Shown here: in pieces, positions 23,389-30,151 of the stretch
How the letters are laid out: every line of letters starts with the position of its first letter
Numbering within the stretch: position 1 is the first letter of the stretch
DNA from: Exiguobacterium sp. 9-2
GTDB taxonomy: Bacteria; Bacillota; Bacilli; Exiguobacteriales; Exiguobacteriaceae
Length of the DNA stretch: 64,000 nt
Direction: 5' to 3'
Assembly: GCF_036287235.1 (NCBI RefSeq)
Contig: NZ_CP142850.1
Coordinates: 1,567,127-1,631,126, forward strand
Position numbers and translations under genes: made by a program
Notes under the pieces: model-generated
Seen by the model: the letters and a program-made list of their open reading frames with translations, nothing else
What the model was told of the DNA's origin: nothing
The model's database searches: none

Positions 23389-23988
23389 ATGCCAAAACAA
23401 GTCAATCACGAAGAACGAAAACGCCTCATCGCAGAAGCAACGTGGCGCACGATTTCTAATGTCGGTATCGAACAAGCTAGCGTCCGGACGATCGCCAAGG
23501 AAGCAGGTCTGTCCCTTGGTGCCTTACGGTATTACTTCACGACCCAAGAAGAATTGCTCCGTTTCTCGATGCAACTCGTCCAAGAACGGGTCCAAGAACG
23601 CATTACAACCATTTTCGAGAGGGGAGGAACACCAGAAGAGACGTTATGCAACGTCTTACTCGAAGTCTTGCCGTATGCACCTGAGCATCAGCTTGAGATG
23701 CAGGTCTGGTTCCAATTCATGATGTCTGCATATGCGTCTCAATCAACAGAGAATCCAGACGACATTTACCACATGTGTCTGGTATTACTGACACGGATTC
23801 CGGACGGTACGTTCCGAGCAGATATAGACATCGAGCTTGAGAGCGAACGTCTCGCAGCACTCGTTGATGGATTAGCCTTTCATGCGTTGTTTCGACCAGA
23901 ACGTCTCCCGAAAGAACGATTACGTCATGTCCTTGTCCATCACTTGAATGCCCTATTCGTCCGCCCTTTAGCGATCGACGACAAATAA
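23389..23988 (+). CDS. TetR-family transcriptional regulator
   Basis: 199 residues. N-terminal HTH is visible (SVRTIAKEAGLSLGALRYYF, residues about 30-50) followed by a helical ligand-binding domain. It acts as a ligand-responsive repressor; target unknown. It has no Shine-Dalgarno sequence. The convergent MATE exporter belongs to a different, Zur-box transcript, so that is not an obvious target; the divergent membrane protein at 22751-23278 or self-regulation is more likely. Confidence 0.82.
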   Translation: MPKQVNHEERKRLIAEATWRTISNVGIEQASVRTIAKEAGLSLGALRYYFTTQEELLRFSMQLVQERVQERITTIFERGGTPEETLCNVLLEVLPYAPEHQLEMQVWFQFMMSAYASQSTENPDDIYHMCLVLLTRIPDGTFRADIDIELESERLAALVDGLAFHALFRPERLPKERLRHVLVHHLNALFVRPLAIDDK

Positions 23989-24029
23989 CCCGAAGTTCCT
24001 TCATCTGCATGAGGGAATTTCGGGTTATT
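23984..24029. terminator. Bidirectional terminator
   Basis: AATAACCCGAA pairs with TTCGGGTTATT and inner TTCC with GGAA. Separates the convergent tetR and MATE genes and overlaps both stop codons. Confidence 0.85.
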
Positions 24030-25318
24030 CATTGTTTCGCTTCTACGAGGATCAACGATAAGGAGCGGATTAAAAAGAACGTCAGAAATGCTGCCCAGAC
24101 TCCCTGATTGTCAAAACTTGATGTCGACAGCAGCACAATCGCAAAACCGATCCCTGCTTGAATCATCGAGTTCCGGACTGGAGTTGCCTCGACACGACCA
24201 GCAAAAATTCCTTCGTAAATCATCGCCCACCCGGCAATCAGCGGTAGGATGATGATCCAGAGATAATAGTCGCGCGCCGCGTCTAGGATCGCTTCTTCTG
24301 AAGTGAACAACTGAAGCAGCGGTGTTTCAAGGAATAGGAGCACAAGTGACCAGAACACGACTGAGTAGAATCCGAACGTCCGTGCCAAACGGACACTCGT
24401 CCGGTATGCTTCCTGATCTTGATGCCCTCTCGCCCGACCGACAAGAACGGTTGACGCATGACCGAGTCCACCAAACCAATAGGAGATCAGATACTGAATC
24501 TGCAGTAGGATCGCATTGGCTGCAAGGATATCTGGTCCGAATTGTCCTCCCGCTCGTGTAAACCAGCCGGTAACGAGTAACAGGAAAATCGTTCGAATGA
24601 ATAAATCTCGATTGACACGAAAGAATTGACGGTAGGCGTGCCAATCCGTCAAGGCACGCAGTTCGTCGCGCGTCATCGACAAATGACTCCGAATCAGATA
24701 GAGACTGCAGGCGACAATGCTGATTTCCGCGATGACGGTCGCAAGCGCAATTCCAGCAACACCGGTGTTCAATCCGTAGACGAATCCAATATCGAGTACG
24801 ACGTTGACCCCGATACTGAATAATTGGACGAATAAAGCATGTTTAACTTGTCCCGTTCCGATTAACCAGCCAAGTAACGCATAACCCATCAAGACGAACG
24901 GTGCGCCAATCATCCGGTACGAGATGTATGTCTTGACTGCATCCAGCAAGTCAGCGGGTGGCGCAAGTAAATAGAGTCCAATCTGTTCAAGCGGCTGGCG
25001 GAATAACAAAATGAGCAAACCGATACAGGCTGCTAGGAACAGCGGTCGGTAGAGCGAAATCCGTAAGGCATGGGCGTCATTCGCGCCGCTTGCCTGAGCA
25101 CTGAATCCTGTCGTACTGACTTTTAAAAAGCCGAACAACCAGTAGATTGTATTGAAGAAGACGGCACCAACAGCAATGCCACCGATCGCGCGCGGATCAC
25201 CCGATTGACCGATGACGACCGTATCGGTCACACCAAGCAACGGTGTCGCAATACTTGAGAGAATGAGCGGATAGGCAAGTAACCAAAACGTTTTGTGGTT
25301 CGGTTGAGTACTCACCAT
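24029..25318 (-). CDS. MATE-family efflux transporter, DinF-like
   Basis: 429 residues, twelve predicted membrane helices, typical MATE length. The N-terminal TPLLGVTDTVVIGQSG segment and the pseudo-symmetric second half (from about residue 215) support the family. Energised by Na+ or H+ antiport. Its start overlaps the upstream ABC ATPase gene by seven bases, so it is the last gene of the five-gene importer operon. In staphylopine-type loci an exporter (CntE, an MFS protein) accompanies the importer; here a MATE protein may take that place, which is inference. Confidence 0.82.
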   Translation of the reverse strand: MVSTQPNHKTFWLLAYPLILSSIATPLLGVTDTVVIGQSGDPRAIGGIAVGAVFFNTIYWLFGFLKVSTTGFSAQASGANDAHALRISLYRPLFLAACIGLLILLFRQPLEQIGLYLLAPPADLLDAVKTYISYRMIGAPFVLMGYALLGWLIGTGQVKHALFVQLFSIGVNVVLDIGFVYGLNTGVAGIALATVIAEISIVACSLYLIRSHLSMTRDELRALTDWHAYRQFFRVNRDLFIRTIFLLLVTGWFTRAGGQFGPDILAANAILLQIQYLISYWFGGLGHASTVLVGRARGHQDQEAYRTSVRLARTFGFYSVVFWSLVLLFLETPLLQLFTSEEAILDAARDYYLWIIILPLIAGWAMIYEGIFAGRVEATPVRNSMIQAGIGFAIVLLSTSSFDNQGVWAAFLTFFLIRSLSLILVEAKQ

Positions 25319-26049
25319 GTGCCCGCCTCCACGAATCGTTGCGTATAGGAACCACCAGATTCTAGTCGGTCAATCAAATCAACAGCATGACCGTCGCGTA
25401 AGACGAGTATTTCTGAACACAGACGACGGATAAAGTCGATATCGTGCGAAATTAATACAAAACTGACACCGAGTGTTTGTTGCAAGCGTTCCAATAGTTC
25501 GATGATACGCGCCCGAGAAACGACATCAAGACCTGTCGTTGGTTCATCCATGACAATGACGTCGGGTTCAATCGAGATCGCGCGGGCAAGCGCGGCACGT
25601 TGAATTTGCCCCCCACTTAATTGATGAGGAAGTCGAGCGAATAGCCGTGACTCTACCCCGACAGCAAGAGCTAATGCTTCAATGAGATCCTCTTCTGACG
25701 TCGCTGGAAAATACCTTAAGATTGGGCGATGACAACGAAATGGTTCAAGAATCGAATCGCGGACCGACCATTCTGGATTAAAAGAAGCGAGCGGATGTTG
25801 AAAGACAGCCTGAATTGCTCGTCGTTCGTTTTGTTGCCCACTCGGAAATATCTTTCCATGTAAGAAAATCGAACCATGAGAGGGCTCGAGTAGACCAAGG
25901 ATCAATCGTCCGAGTGTCGTCTTCCCACTCCCACTTTCACCAATGATGCCAAATGACGACTTTGCCATCACTTGAAACGAGATATTCGAGAGGATGGGTT
26001 GCTCCTTCATTTGATAAGTAAGGCTTGTTACGGATAAGACAGATGGCAT
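25312..26049 (-). CDS. ABC transporter ATPase, Nik/Opp type (second)
   Basis: 245 residues, OppF/NikE/CntF class. Walker A GESGSGKTT, signature LSGGQIQR, Walker B VIVMDEPTT and switch SHD are intact. Couples ATP hydrolysis to the permeases encoded upstream in the operon. Start overlaps the previous ATPase gene by 22 bases. Confidence 0.88.
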   Translation of the reverse strand: MPSVLSVTSLTYQMKEQPILSNISFQVMAKSSFGIIGESGSGKTTLGRLILGLLEPSHGSIFLHGKIFPSGQQNERRAIQAVFQHPLASFNPEWSVRDSILEPFRCHRPILRYFPATSEEDLIEALALAVGVESRLFARLPHQLSGGQIQRAALARAISIEPDVIVMDEPTTGLDVVSRARIIELLERLQQTLGVSFVLISHDIDFIRRLCSEILVLRDGHAVDLIDRLESGGSYTQRFVEAGTW

Positions 26050-26774
26050 GATTTCTTCCTTTCTTCCATTGATATACGATGCGCTTGCATCAAGGCAAGC
26101 GTGAACGGGTGACGACTTCGTTTCATCATCTGTGGAGTTCCCGTCTCGACGATTTGCCCTTCCTGCATCAAGACGAGCTGGTCGCCATAATGTAAAGCAG
26201 GTCCTAATTCATGGGTGACGAACAAGATCGTTGCACCGTACTGGTGTTGGTATTCGGCCAACCAGTCGAGTAAACGACGTGTCAAGACGGGATCAAGTGC
26301 CGTCGTTAACTCATCCGCCAAGATCAACCGCGGTTTTAAGGCGACGGCAAATAGGATTGCGAATCGTTGCAATTGCCCACCACTTAACTCGGATGGAAAC
26401 CGGTCCAACCAAGCAGGGTCCAACTCGAGCGTTTGCAAGACATGATCGATGTGAGGTTGATCGACCTTTCGTTTATGCGCACGATACGTATCCCGTAACA
26501 TCTGACGCATCGTCAAAAATGGAAGAAACGCATCTGTGTATTGTTGTGGTATGTAACCGATATCAAGTCCTCGTCGAAGTGGTTCATCTGAAAGGACCTC
26601 ACCTCTAGAGGACATCCCGTCCGGCAATCGATCTAGTAGTCGTTTAAGCAGGAGTGTTTTTCCACTTCCGCTCGCTCCTACGAGACAGATGAATTGATGA
26701 GCCGGCAGCGATAGGTTTATATCATGCAGAAGGACGTGTTTCGCCCGAACGTGTAAGCGCCGAATCTGAATCAT
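26028..26774 (-). CDS. ABC transporter ATPase, Nik/Opp type (first)
   Basis: 248 residues, OppD/NikD/CntD class. Walker A GASGSGKTL, signature LSGGQLQR, Walker B LILADELTT; the usual DEPT is DELT. Partner of the 25312 ATPase. GAAAGGAGG precedes ATG 26774, which lies inside the end of the permease gene (53-base overlap). Confidence 0.88.
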   Translation of the reverse strand: MIQIRRLHVRAKHVLLHDINLSLPAHQFICLVGASGSGKTLLLKRLLDRLPDGMSSRGEVLSDEPLRRGLDIGYIPQQYTDAFLPFLTMRQMLRDTYRAHKRKVDQPHIDHVLQTLELDPAWLDRFPSELSGGQLQRFAILFAVALKPRLILADELTTALDPVLTRRLLDWLAEYQHQYGATILFVTHELGPALHYGDQLVLMQEGQIVETGTPQMMKRSRHPFTLALMQAHRISMEERKKSCHLSYP

Positions 26775-27549
26775 CTGATTGTCCTCCTTTCTTCTTCATC
26801 CGCCGGGTCCACCCCATCGTCGCAACGACGATGAGGACGATACACGCACCTGGTAAAAGCATGAGTCGAGGAGCCGAACTGAAATAAGGACGCCCTTCGT
26901 TTAACATTGCTCCCCATTCTGGAAATGGTGCCTGGACACCAAGACCGATATAAGAGAACGCTGACAGGAACAAGATGACTTTCCCGACATCCAAACTCAT
27001 CAAAACGACGACTTGACGGATGATCGGTGGAAGGATGTGGCTTCGTAAAATCATCTTGTCCGTTAGACCATTGATTCGTGCCATGCTGATATATGGTTTT
27101 TGAATCGTCTCGGTCACGAGCGTCTCACTTAATCGCGCATAAGAGATCCATTTGATGAGTAAAATCGCAAAGATTAAGCCTTGTGGACTTGCACCGAATA
27201 ATCCAGCGATGACGAGTGCTAGAACGGTATCCGGAAAAATGACGAGACCATCTGCTAATCGGTGTATCAAACGATTGAGACGTCCACCATAAAATCCAGC
27301 AATACAACCAAGGAAAGTACCGATGATTGCAGTGAGCAAAACAGTAAGTAGGCTGAAACCTAAGGATATCAAACCAGCTAAAAAAAGACGAGCTGCGAAA
27401 TCTCGTCCTAAACCGTCTGTTCCAAGCCAATGTTCAATAGAAGAGGGTTCAAGTCTCTTCGTTACTTTTACTGTAAAAGGATTATTAAATACGGTATATG
27501 AAATAAAAAGTAGTAGACATCCCCCAAAATACATCATTTTTTTTTTCAT
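26722..27549 (-). CDS. ABC transporter permease, NikC/OppC type
   Basis: 275 residues with six helices. N-terminal signal-anchor helix, then HWLGTDGLGRDFAARLF, characteristic of OppC/NikC proteins, and the EAA-like coupling loop (YISMARINGLTDKMILRSHILP). ATG 27549 is chosen over TTG 27570 because it overlaps the upstream stop as ATGA and AAGGGG lies nine bases before it. Confidence 0.87.
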   Translation of the reverse strand: MKKKMMYFGGCLLLFISYTVFNNPFTVKVTKRLEPSSIEHWLGTDGLGRDFAARLFLAGLISLGFSLLTVLLTAIIGTFLGCIAGFYGGRLNRLIHRLADGLVIFPDTVLALVIAGLFGASPQGLIFAILLIKWISYARLSETLVTETIQKPYISMARINGLTDKMILRSHILPPIIRQVVVLMSLDVGKVILFLSAFSYIGLGVQAPFPEWGAMLNEGRPYFSSAPRLMLLPGACIVLIVVATMGWTRRMKKKGGQSDDSDSALTRSGETRPSA

Positions 27550-28481
27550 CGATCTGTGCCCCTTTTCCAATCTGGTCGTAATACCCGGTTCAGCGATCGG
27601 ATTCCTTGATGCAATACGAGAATGACGCCTGTCGTCAGCAAGATGTATCCTTGGATTAGCGGATAATCACGTTGTAAGATCGCATCGACCATCAACTTCC
27701 CGACACCCGGATACGTGAACAGCACTTCAAGGACGACGACGCCTCCGGCAAGACTACAAAGCGTCAGACCGAATACGGACAGAACCGGTGGCAGACTTCC
27801 ACGTAACGCATAACGCCAAAGAATCGTCCGCTCCGCTACACCGCGAATCCGTGCCAATTCAATATACGGTTGGTCCAGTTCACGCCGTAAATTCAGTCGA
27901 ATCAACGGGATGTAGACGCTCGCAAGCGGAAAACCAAGTGAGAGTGCTGGGAGAAGGAGCGACGTCATTCCCTCTCGTCCCATCACGGGAAGCCAGCCGA
28001 GGCGGACAGCAAACAGGTCAACGAGTAACAGACCAATCCAAAAACCAGGTATCGCTGCACCCGCGATACTAACGGCGTTTGCAAGTCGCTCGACGTAGTG
28101 ACGCGTTGTCATTGCACTCCCGATTCCAAGTGGTAACGCGATCAGTAACGCAATCGCAATTCCTCCTAACGCCAGTTCTGCCGTCACGAGATAACTCTCG
28201 CGCAGCATCTCGATGACCGGTCGTCCGGTTTGCAATGAATCTCCAAGCTGTAAGGTAAGGATATCTTGCAACCAATGAACGTATTGCATGAGTAGTGGCT
28301 GGTCGTACCCTAATTCACGGCGTGCGGCCTCGATTTGTTCGCGTGTCGCTGATAATTCATCGATATTTAATAACGTCAAAACCGGATCTCCCGGTAATAA
28401 ACGCAATAAACTAAAACAACTGAACGTCATAATGAGCGTAAAAAGACTCAGCGATAGCAATCGCTTGACAATCGGATGCAT
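27546..28481 (-). CDS. ABC transporter permease, NikB/OppB type
   Basis: 311 residues with six helices, OppB/NikB class. Conserved LLPGDPVLTLL near residue 28 and the coupling loop (YIELARIRGVAERTILWRYALR). Start codon abuts the stop of the binding-protein gene. Forms the membrane channel with the 26722 product. Confidence 0.88.
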   Translation of the reverse strand: MHPIVKRLLSLSLFTLIMTFSCFSLLRLLPGDPVLTLLNIDELSATREQIEAARRELGYDQPLLMQYVHWLQDILTLQLGDSLQTGRPVIEMLRESYLVTAELALGGIAIALLIALPLGIGSAMTTRHYVERLANAVSIAGAAIPGFWIGLLLVDLFAVRLGWLPVMGREGMTSLLLPALSLGFPLASVYIPLIRLNLRRELDQPYIELARIRGVAERTILWRYALRGSLPPVLSVFGLTLCSLAGGVVVLEVLFTYPGVGKLMVDAILQRDYPLIQGYILLTTGVILVLHQGIRSLNRVLRPDWKRGTDR

Positions 28482-29998
28482 TACTCGTTCACCCGAAGCG
28501 TACTCGTGATCATATAGTACTCACTTTTTTCTGTCTTCCACCCTTTGACACGTTTGCTGTCATAGGCGACAAGCGTCGAAGGATGGAGCAAGAAGCTGTT
28601 GTAACGCTTTTGATCGACATATCGTGCAATCTGCTCAGCAAGACGTGAGCGCTCATCGACCTCAAGCGTTCGATTCAACGTCTCGACTTGTTTCGTCAAG
28701 ACTGGATCTGTAACACGACTGAAGTTCAATCCTCCGTTTGGATGATAGGTCGCATTCAAGTAATACCCGGCATCACCGCGAGGAGCTGTCAGATTGCTGT
28801 ATGTCGCCATGTCCCAGTCCCGGTTACTCGCCATATATTCTTCCGGGACATCAATTTGCTTGATCTTGATCGTCACACCGATCTTTTTCGCGTCGTCCTG
28901 GATGACTTGGGCAATCATTGGTAAGTCAGGTCTAGCGGCATACGTCAATAACATTAACGTTAAGGGACGACCATCTTTTTGCATCAAGCCATCTCGTTTT
29001 ATGTAGCCTGCTTGCTTTAGCCATTCTTCAGGTGTCTTCTGCTCTTGCTTCGGATACTCTGGAGCGAACGGGAATGATGATAGGAACGGACCGCGTGCTT
29101 TAACAGCATACCCTTGAAGAACATGGTCGACGAGCTGTTGTCGATTAATCAAAGCGTCCATCGCTTGTCGGACTTCAAGCGATTGCATCGGTCCATTCGC
29201 GACATTCATCGTCACCTGATGGACACGAAACGTATCTGTCGCTTGAACCGTCAACCCTTCCGATTTCAGTTGTTTGACACTCTCGATCTCTGGACGATAG
29301 ACAATATCCGCTTGTCCGGCACGTAAAGCATTCGTCCGTGCTCCGGCGTCTTCGTTGAAGACGAAATCAATCGAAGCGAGTTTCGCTTGTTCTTGCCAGT
29401 ACGACGAAAAGCGCTTTAATTCGACTTTTGTTCCGGGAGCAAATCGCTCGACTTGAAACGGTCCTGTACCGATCGGTTGTTGTGTCACACCGTCTGCATC
29501 CGTATCGATGATTGCCGTGTTCGGATTAACGAGTTCTGAGATGAACTCCGGATAGGTCGTCTTCGTTTGAATGAGCAAATCCGGTCCGTCTGTTTTGATG
29601 GTCTTGATGTTCAAGGCATTTTTGACACCCGGATTTTCCTGAATCGAGCGCTCAAGTGACGATTTGACCCCAGCGGCATCAAGTTGTTTTCCATTATGGA
29701 ATGTCACGTCGTCTTGTAAGACGATCCGCCATGTTCGTTTTCCTTCGTAGGACCATTTCTTCGCGAGCCACGGCTCGACCGTCAATCGTTCGTCATCCAG
29801 ACGAACGAGCGTCTCCGTTACTCCCGCGCGGAGCGGAACATAACTACTGTCCCGATGTGGATCGAGTGATTGTGTCGCGAAGTTATAAACGAACGTCAAA
29901 TGCGCTTGATCTGACTTTTTTTCAGAAGAAACACAACCGGCAAGTGTCAAACTCAGTAAGACACTCCCGATGAGGCATGTTGTTTTATATGTAGACAT
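28481..29998 (-). CDS. Metal/metallophore or peptide ABC transporter binding lipoprotein
   Basis: SBP_bac_5 family lipoprotein of 505 residues with lipobox LTLAGC (Cys22). The start of the mature domain (VYNFATQSLDPHRDSSYVP) and the later arginine-rich lining resemble NikA/CntA-type nickel or metal-metallophore binders more than oligopeptide binders. First gene of a six-gene operon: binding protein, two permeases, two ATPases and MATE exporter. AAAGGTGG precedes the ATG. Two Zur-like boxes lie in its promoter, so the cargo is probably zinc-related. The exact ligand cannot be read from sequence. Confidence 0.8.
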   Translation of the reverse strand: MSTYKTTCLIGSVLLSLTLAGCVSSEKKSDQAHLTFVYNFATQSLDPHRDSSYVPLRAGVTETLVRLDDERLTVEPWLAKKWSYEGKRTWRIVLQDDVTFHNGKQLDAAGVKSSLERSIQENPGVKNALNIKTIKTDGPDLLIQTKTTYPEFISELVNPNTAIIDTDADGVTQQPIGTGPFQVERFAPGTKVELKRFSSYWQEQAKLASIDFVFNEDAGARTNALRAGQADIVYRPEIESVKQLKSEGLTVQATDTFRVHQVTMNVANGPMQSLEVRQAMDALINRQQLVDHVLQGYAVKARGPFLSSFPFAPEYPKQEQKTPEEWLKQAGYIKRDGLMQKDGRPLTLMLLTYAARPDLPMIAQVIQDDAKKIGVTIKIKQIDVPEEYMASNRDWDMATYSNLTAPRGDAGYYLNATYHPNGGLNFSRVTDPVLTKQVETLNRTLEVDERSRLAEQIARYVDQKRYNSFLLHPSTLVAYDSKRVKGWKTEKSEYYMITSTLRVNE

Positions 29999-30015
29999 TG
30001 CTCTCCACCTTTAAA

Positions 30016-30030
30016 TCGGAATAATTACGT
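30016..30030 (-). promoter_or_regulatory. Zur box, proximal
   Basis: TCGGAAT-A-ATTACGT. Over the 21-base window it matches the remembered Bacillus Zur consensus (AAATCGTAAT-N-ATTACGATTT) at 18 of 20 positions. It lies around or just after the predicted transcription start of the importer operon. Confidence 0.7.
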
Positions 30031-30035
30031 TTTAA

Positions 30036-30064
30036 ATCATATCGTAATGATTCCGATTTAACAA
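30036..30064 (-). promoter_or_regulatory. Sigma-A promoter of metallophore-type importer operon
   Basis: Minus strand TTGTTA (30064-30059), exactly 17 bases, TATGAT (30041-30036). The spacer is the distal Zur box. Confidence 0.7.
30042..30056 (-). promoter_or_regulatory. Zur box, distal, inside promoter spacer
   Basis: TCGTAAT-G-ATTCCGA, also 18 of 20 against the consensus over 21 bases. It sits wholly between the -35 and -10 elements, so a bound repressor would exclude RNA polymerase. Centre-to-centre distance to the proximal box is 26 bases. Confidence 0.75.
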
Positions 30065-30102
30065 GCATCTTTTTTATTTCTCTATATTGTTTAAACAACA
30101 TA

Positions 30103-30151
30103 AAAAAATATACCGGAATGTACAAGTCGTTTGCTTGAACGTTCCGGTATA
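30103..30151 (-). terminator. Terminator of chemoreceptor gene
   Basis: ATACCGGAACGTTCAAG pairs with CTTGTACATTCCGGTAT allowing two mismatches, followed by seven T residues on the minus strand. Confidence 0.85.

Follow-up and report, generated by a model that had tools for sequence, protein, structure and literature searches.

A Nik-type ABC importer operon of Exiguobacterium sp. 9-2 with a predicted two-box Zur promoter and a likely role in zinc scavenging

Which metal controls, and which metal enters through, an ABC importer whose solute-binding protein (SBP) falls under the NCBI family model named "nickel ABC transporter substrate-binding protein"? The question is raised by a locus in the window, the whole stretch of 64,000 nucleotides of the Exiguobacterium sp. 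9-2 genome that was analyzed, in which such an importer follows a promoter carrying two predicted binding sites of the zinc regulator Zur. The features of this locus are as follows, in window coordinates.

30101..30151, minus strand: terminator of the preceding methyl-accepting-type gene (−20.9 kcal/mol, z −4.4, then a U tract)
30059..30064 (read 30064-30059), minus strand: −35 element TTGTTA (TTGTTA or TTGATA in relatives)
30039..30059, minus strand: predicted Zur box A, AAATCGGAATCATTACGATAT, 18/20 to the consensus
30058-30042, minus strand: 17-nt spacer AATCGGAATCATTACGA between TTGTTA and TATGAT, filled by box A
30036..30041 (read 30041-30036), minus strand: −10 element TATGAT, kept in relatives
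30013..30033, minus strand: predicted Zur box B, AAAACGTAATTATTCCGATTT, 26 bp downstream of box A, 18/20
28481..29998, minus strand: lipoprotein SBP of the Opp5A/NikA family (NF045468, 668.6 bits, cut-off 600)
27546..28481, minus strand: NikB/Opp2B-like permease (NF045470, 331 bits, cut-off 350)
26722..27549, minus strand: NikC/Opp2C-like permease (NF045474, 267 bits, cut-off 300)
26028..26774, minus strand: NikD-like ATPase (TIGR02770, 143 bits, cut-off 319)
25312..26049, minus strand: NikE-like ATPase (TIGR02769, 190 bits, cut-off 333)
24029..25318, minus strand: MATE-family efflux transporter (DinF-like), last gene of the operon (TIGR00797, 225 bits, cut-off 147)
23984..24029, no strand assigned: terminator-like inverted repeat of 20 pairs between the operon and a convergent TetR gene

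The minus strand 5' of gene 28481-29998 reads TTGTTA-AATCGGAATCATTACGA-TATGAT-TTAAAACGTAATTATTCCGATTTAAAGGTGGAGAGCAATG, on which the predicted +1 lies at about 30029, inside box B. The boxes were scored against the Zur consensus AAATCGTAATNATTACGATTT, a 21-mer with 20 specified positions, and each departs from it at 2 of the 20; these were the two matches at ≤3 mismatches in the 64-kb window, against a mean of 0.01 in shuffled sequence. An earlier note on this DNA had described a promoter TTGTTA-N17-TATGAT with its whole spacer occupied by one Zur box, a second box 26 bases downstream, and 18 of 20 consensus positions for each; all of this was confirmed, the 18 of 20 exactly, and the position given there (30016-30064) is correct within a few bases. 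Upstream, the operon is insulated by the terminator at 30101..30151. Its six genes (SBP, two permeases, two ATPases and MATE) overlap their neighbours by 1 nt to 53 nt, the overlap of the MATE gene with the nikE-like gene being 7 nt. The NikC/Opp2C-like permease was assigned the ATG at 27549, while the mechanical open reading frame begins with TTG at 27570.

The genome of 3,064,689 bases (3.06 Mb) was scanned using degenerate patterns together with reversed-pattern controls. Five sites were obtained at ≤3 mismatches and none with the reversed control. Besides boxes A and B, one site precedes a znuA-like gene, encoding a His-rich ZnuA/AdcA-like lipoprotein, and is identical in sequence to box B; the other two lie 49 bp apart before the gene of a GTPase nearest to the zinc chaperone ZigA (yciC/zigA type). 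A looser pattern gave an additional, weaker site 5' of znuC in a znuCB-zur operon. The earlier note had suggested comparing the boxes with znuA and other Zur targets by a genome scan with a Zur matrix, and with the degenerate patterns they tie with the znuA box. Since the other best sites precede znuA, the ZigA-like GTPase gene and znuCB-zur, the nik promoter ranks beside the classical Zur targets. A site at 2682299, with 2 mismatches to the degenerate pattern, was discarded because it lies inside a glycosyltransferase-like gene.

Three clear Fur-family genes were found in the genome. The first is Fur (NF051892, 255 bits, cut-off 220), and the second, which adjoins a glutamate-semialdehyde aminotransferase-like gene, has PerR as its best model at a score below the cut-off. 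The third lies directly 3' of znuCB, and its solved relatives include the zinc regulator FurB of M. tuberculosis; it is named Zur on the basis of operon context, because it scores below every NCBIfam cut-off. The genome therefore holds both a Zur protein, as named from its context, and other Zur targets (znuA, znuC and the ZigA-like GTPase gene), as expected of a Bacillus-type Zur regulon, to which a 9-1-9 Zur box overlapping the promoter and its conservation across relatives also conform.

Two side observations concern these zinc genes. The znuA-like gene of strain 9-2 (L008:1542-2351; genome 2850987 onward) has an in-frame stop at codon 270, whereas the protein comprises 317-337 residues in five relatives and the similarity runs on past this stop; unless this is an assembly error, the C-terminal lobe of the product would be missing. 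If the stop is real, the main zinc-binding uptake route left intact in the strain may be the Nik-type importer. A near-perfect Zur box also stands before the gene of a 383-aa FAD/NAD(P)-binding oxidoreductase, PF13454 (L075:1501-2694, L241:8037-9233), in at least one genome of Exiguobacterium, G001. The sequence of this box occurs also in genomes G002, G005 and G015, and no PF13454 gene was found in the searched stretch of the 9-2 genome.

Conservation was examined in 18 genomes of the genus, 9-2 included, and in its sister genus. The operon is present in 9 of the 18, and five more carriers belong to the sister genus. Both boxes occur in all 13 family relatives having the operon, always offset by exactly 26 bp, a distance retained although the sequence within and between the boxes is altered. 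Their aligned upstream regions show the 17-nt spacer, and in the sister genus (~58% SBP identity) most promoters read TTGATA-N17-TATGAT, where a box once more occupies the spacer. The number of Zur-like sites is 6-9 in genus genomes carrying the operon and 3-5 in genus genomes lacking it. The MATE gene forms the operon end in 13/13 family-level orthologous loci, one of which has a split SBP gene. In that sister-genus relative (G032, L063:772-2192) the SBP gene is divided into two overlapping frames, a probable frameshift, and the Zur boxes are retained. In the genome G168, classed in the same species as 9-2, a search with NF045468 matched nothing at E ≤ 1e-80, and the operon may therefore vary even within the species.

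The survey was extended to 80 named Bacillales loci picked by protein similarity only, making 81 with the window, from Rossellomorea, Metabacillus, Paenibacillus, Terribacillus, Evansella, Lysinibacillus, Ureibacillus, Domibacillus, Saccharibacillus and other genera. A box at ≤4 mismatches was detected in 77/81 loci, the window included, and two or more boxes in 71/81; these counts are not independent, because many of the loci are close relatives. The background elsewhere in the same loci was 0.016 boxes per kb. The offset between boxes is 26 bp in 38 loci and 38 bp in 20; the longer one is that of many Paenibacillus and Saccharibacillus loci. The first box lies in a 17-nt promoter spacer with at least 9/12 consensus bases in 64/77 loci, a somewhat generous count because the best offset was picked per locus. 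Most boxes of the box-bearing clade retain the CG pairs by which Zur sites are told apart, and PMC4324032 describes the corresponding positions as the most critical for B. subtilis Zur binding. The recurrence of this two-box promoter arrangement in scores of related soil bacteria makes it probable that the transporter family belongs to the zinc-starvation response. Four of the 81 loci have no box at ≤4 mismatches; two of them, Paenibacillus L158 and L173, keep both importer and MATE and may be under another control. In Saccharibacillus, a gene for a 334-aa protein begins ~70 bp or less after the importer operon (L168:13554-14558, L162:13407-14411), and one of the two proteins was searched and gave no Pfam match.

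Negative controls came from 300 genomes sampled evenly across the class plus the Bacillales loci, binned by SBP identity to 9-2. The box was present in 103/108 loci at ≥50% identity, 14/22 at 36-50% and 0/24 below 36%, and shuffled upstream regions gave a match at ≤4 mismatches in 0.08% of trials. No box was found upstream of 15 more distant homologues or of paralogues. The SaNikA-like sister clade (f10), of which the one member tested matched SaNikA with 627 bits, has the Zur box in 0/14 promoters, and 6/14 of its loci lie within a few kb of urease (two of the loci, L064 and L217, come from one genome). It formed a single separate branch of the tree, on which the box label was strongly clustered, with 11 changes versus 33.5 when shuffled, as evaluated by a quick method with long branches present. 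Control by Zur, as the earlier note had proposed, is thus supported by the genome-wide ranking, the 13 relatives, about 77 Bacillales orthologues and clean negative controls, and on this sequence evidence it appears very likely.

The same note had called the importer "Nik/Cnt-like", of which the first half stands: the SBP belongs to the Opp5A/NikA family, its score exceeding the curated one. It matches PDB 3t66, deposited as a "nickel-binding protein" and probably a member of the same clade, with 609 bits over its whole length, and SaNikA (PDB 4ofj) with 270 bits. For the permeases and ATPases, too, the closest models are nickel ones, with all scores below the curated cut-offs. The Cnt half does not hold, since the SBP reaches 91 bits against a cut-off of 800 for the CntA model and no opine synthase gene was found. 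The opine synthase model (CntM, PF10100) matched none of 14 Exiguobacterium-family genomes, 9-2 included, and matched 4 of 7 f10 genomes, a positive control that makes the absence informative. The staphylopine importer CntABCDF of S. aureus is likewise a Nik/Opp-type ABC importer repressed by Zur, being Zur- and Fur-controlled, with an exporter encoded beside it (PMC5666155). The 9-2 system differs from it in having an SBP other than CntA, a MATE protein as the exporter and no opine dehydrogenase in the genome, an enzyme that the same search finds in the four SaNikA-clade genomes. SaNikA and its f10 relatives, although of the same family NF045468, are unlike the 9-2 protein in their promoters, in their proximity to urease and in their branch of the tree.

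Two Zur boxes are likewise reported for the promoters of B. subtilis yciC and B. anthracis yciC/BAS1632 in PMC6103462 and PMC6336718, respectively; these drive a GTPase or other genes, whereas that of 9-2 drives a Nik-type importer. This operon is not among the targets listed in the excerpts of PMC6103462, PMC6336718, PMC4324032 and PMC5007448 that deal with Firmicutes Zur regulons. Among open-licence full texts, none was found that describes Zur control of this SBP family, though an earlier prediction is possible, for example in RegPrecise.

How the promoter would operate can be proposed from this arrangement. When zinc is sufficient, zinc-loaded Zur would occupy box A in the −35/−10 spacer together with box B at the start site and exclude RNA polymerase; from these positions, binding to either box would block the polymerase. 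When zinc falls, Zur would leave and the six overlapping genes would be transcribed together, co-induced with znuA, znuCB-zur and the zinc-chaperone GTPase gene. The SBP and the ABC complex would then import zinc, most likely chelated by histidine or another small metabolite. NikA-type proteins bind metal (nickel) together with small chelators, which makes a zinc chelate the likeliest cargo. From the regulation, zinc in free or chelated form is likely to be the main cargo, and we consider it probable as a whole that the operon is repressed by Zur and encodes a Nik-type ABC importer with a zinc-scavenging function.

The strongest competing explanation accepts Zur control and assigns nickel, cobalt or several metals to a broad importer, perhaps because Ni or Co is substituted in zinc enzymes. 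Membership of the SBP in NF045468 speaks for such a cargo, as does the true urease (E < 1e-50) found in 13/30 sampled genomes of the box-bearing clade, where weaker PF00449 matches are probably other amidohydrolases. The argument that a lack of urease implies zinc was hence rejected for the clade as a whole, in which the importer may serve nickel supply. For strain 9-2, however, models of urease, LarA and NiFe hydrogenase gave no match in the genome, nor in the Exiguobacterium-family genomes searched, which leaves among these three families no nickel enzyme for the importer to serve. Moreover, the SaNikA-like branch lacks the boxes, and H260, invariant in 117/117 box-bearing proteins, is replaced by Ser or Gln in 13/14 f10 proteins. 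Nickel or cobalt as the cargo accordingly seems unlikely. Much less probable still is a peptide or amino-acid importer induced by zinc starvation for reasons besides metal uptake; the SBP_bac_5 superfamily does include dipeptide importers, and weaker matches to DppA and GsiB were obtained, but NikA-like is the best and sole family above its cut-off and the nearest solved structures are named nickel-binding proteins. That the boxes are Fur or PerR sites, placing the operon under iron or peroxide control, is the least credible explanation. In its favour are the Fur and PerR-like genes of the genome and the 7-1-7 frame common to the boxes of all three regulators. Against it, the box cores show 1 and 2 mismatches to the core of Zur and at least 5 to those of Fur and PerR, most boxes of the clade retain the Zur-distinguishing CG pairs, and the other best sites of the genome precede zinc genes.

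Returning to the presumed zinc-scavenging operon, its last gene requires a separate consideration. Outside Exiguobacterium, the importer is paired with MATE at 12 of the named loci, which belong to six genera or more. A general exporter role was rejected, as the genes that follow the importer in most Bacillales orthologues are unrelated. The substrate of the MATE protein may be a chelator or some unrelated toxic metabolite. A paper on fusobacteria mentions MatE transporters in zincophore clusters (PMC7438024). It is conceivable, though doubtful, that the operon constitutes a full shuttle for an undescribed endogenous zinc carrier, in which MATE would export a small chelator, the product of ordinary metabolism or of unlinked genes, whose zinc complex would return through the Nik-type importer. 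Such a shuttle, if true, would amount to a zincophore cycle that dispenses with opine-type synthesis genes, and the search for a possible new zinc carrier can start directly from the importer-exporter pairing.

The same promoter logic across most of the Bacillales clade, together with MATE at the operon end, points beyond what the earlier note had claimed. Judged from their promoters, most Bacillales proteins annotated as "Opp5A/NikA, nickel" look like zinc-starvation genes. If this is true, the SaNikA-like branch apart, the majority of the family's Bacillales members carry a wrong name and should be assigned to zinc starvation, the box-bearing clade and SaNikA would provide a simple test case for metal specificity within one family, and Gram-positive bacteria would possess a second, Cnt-independent route of zinc uptake.
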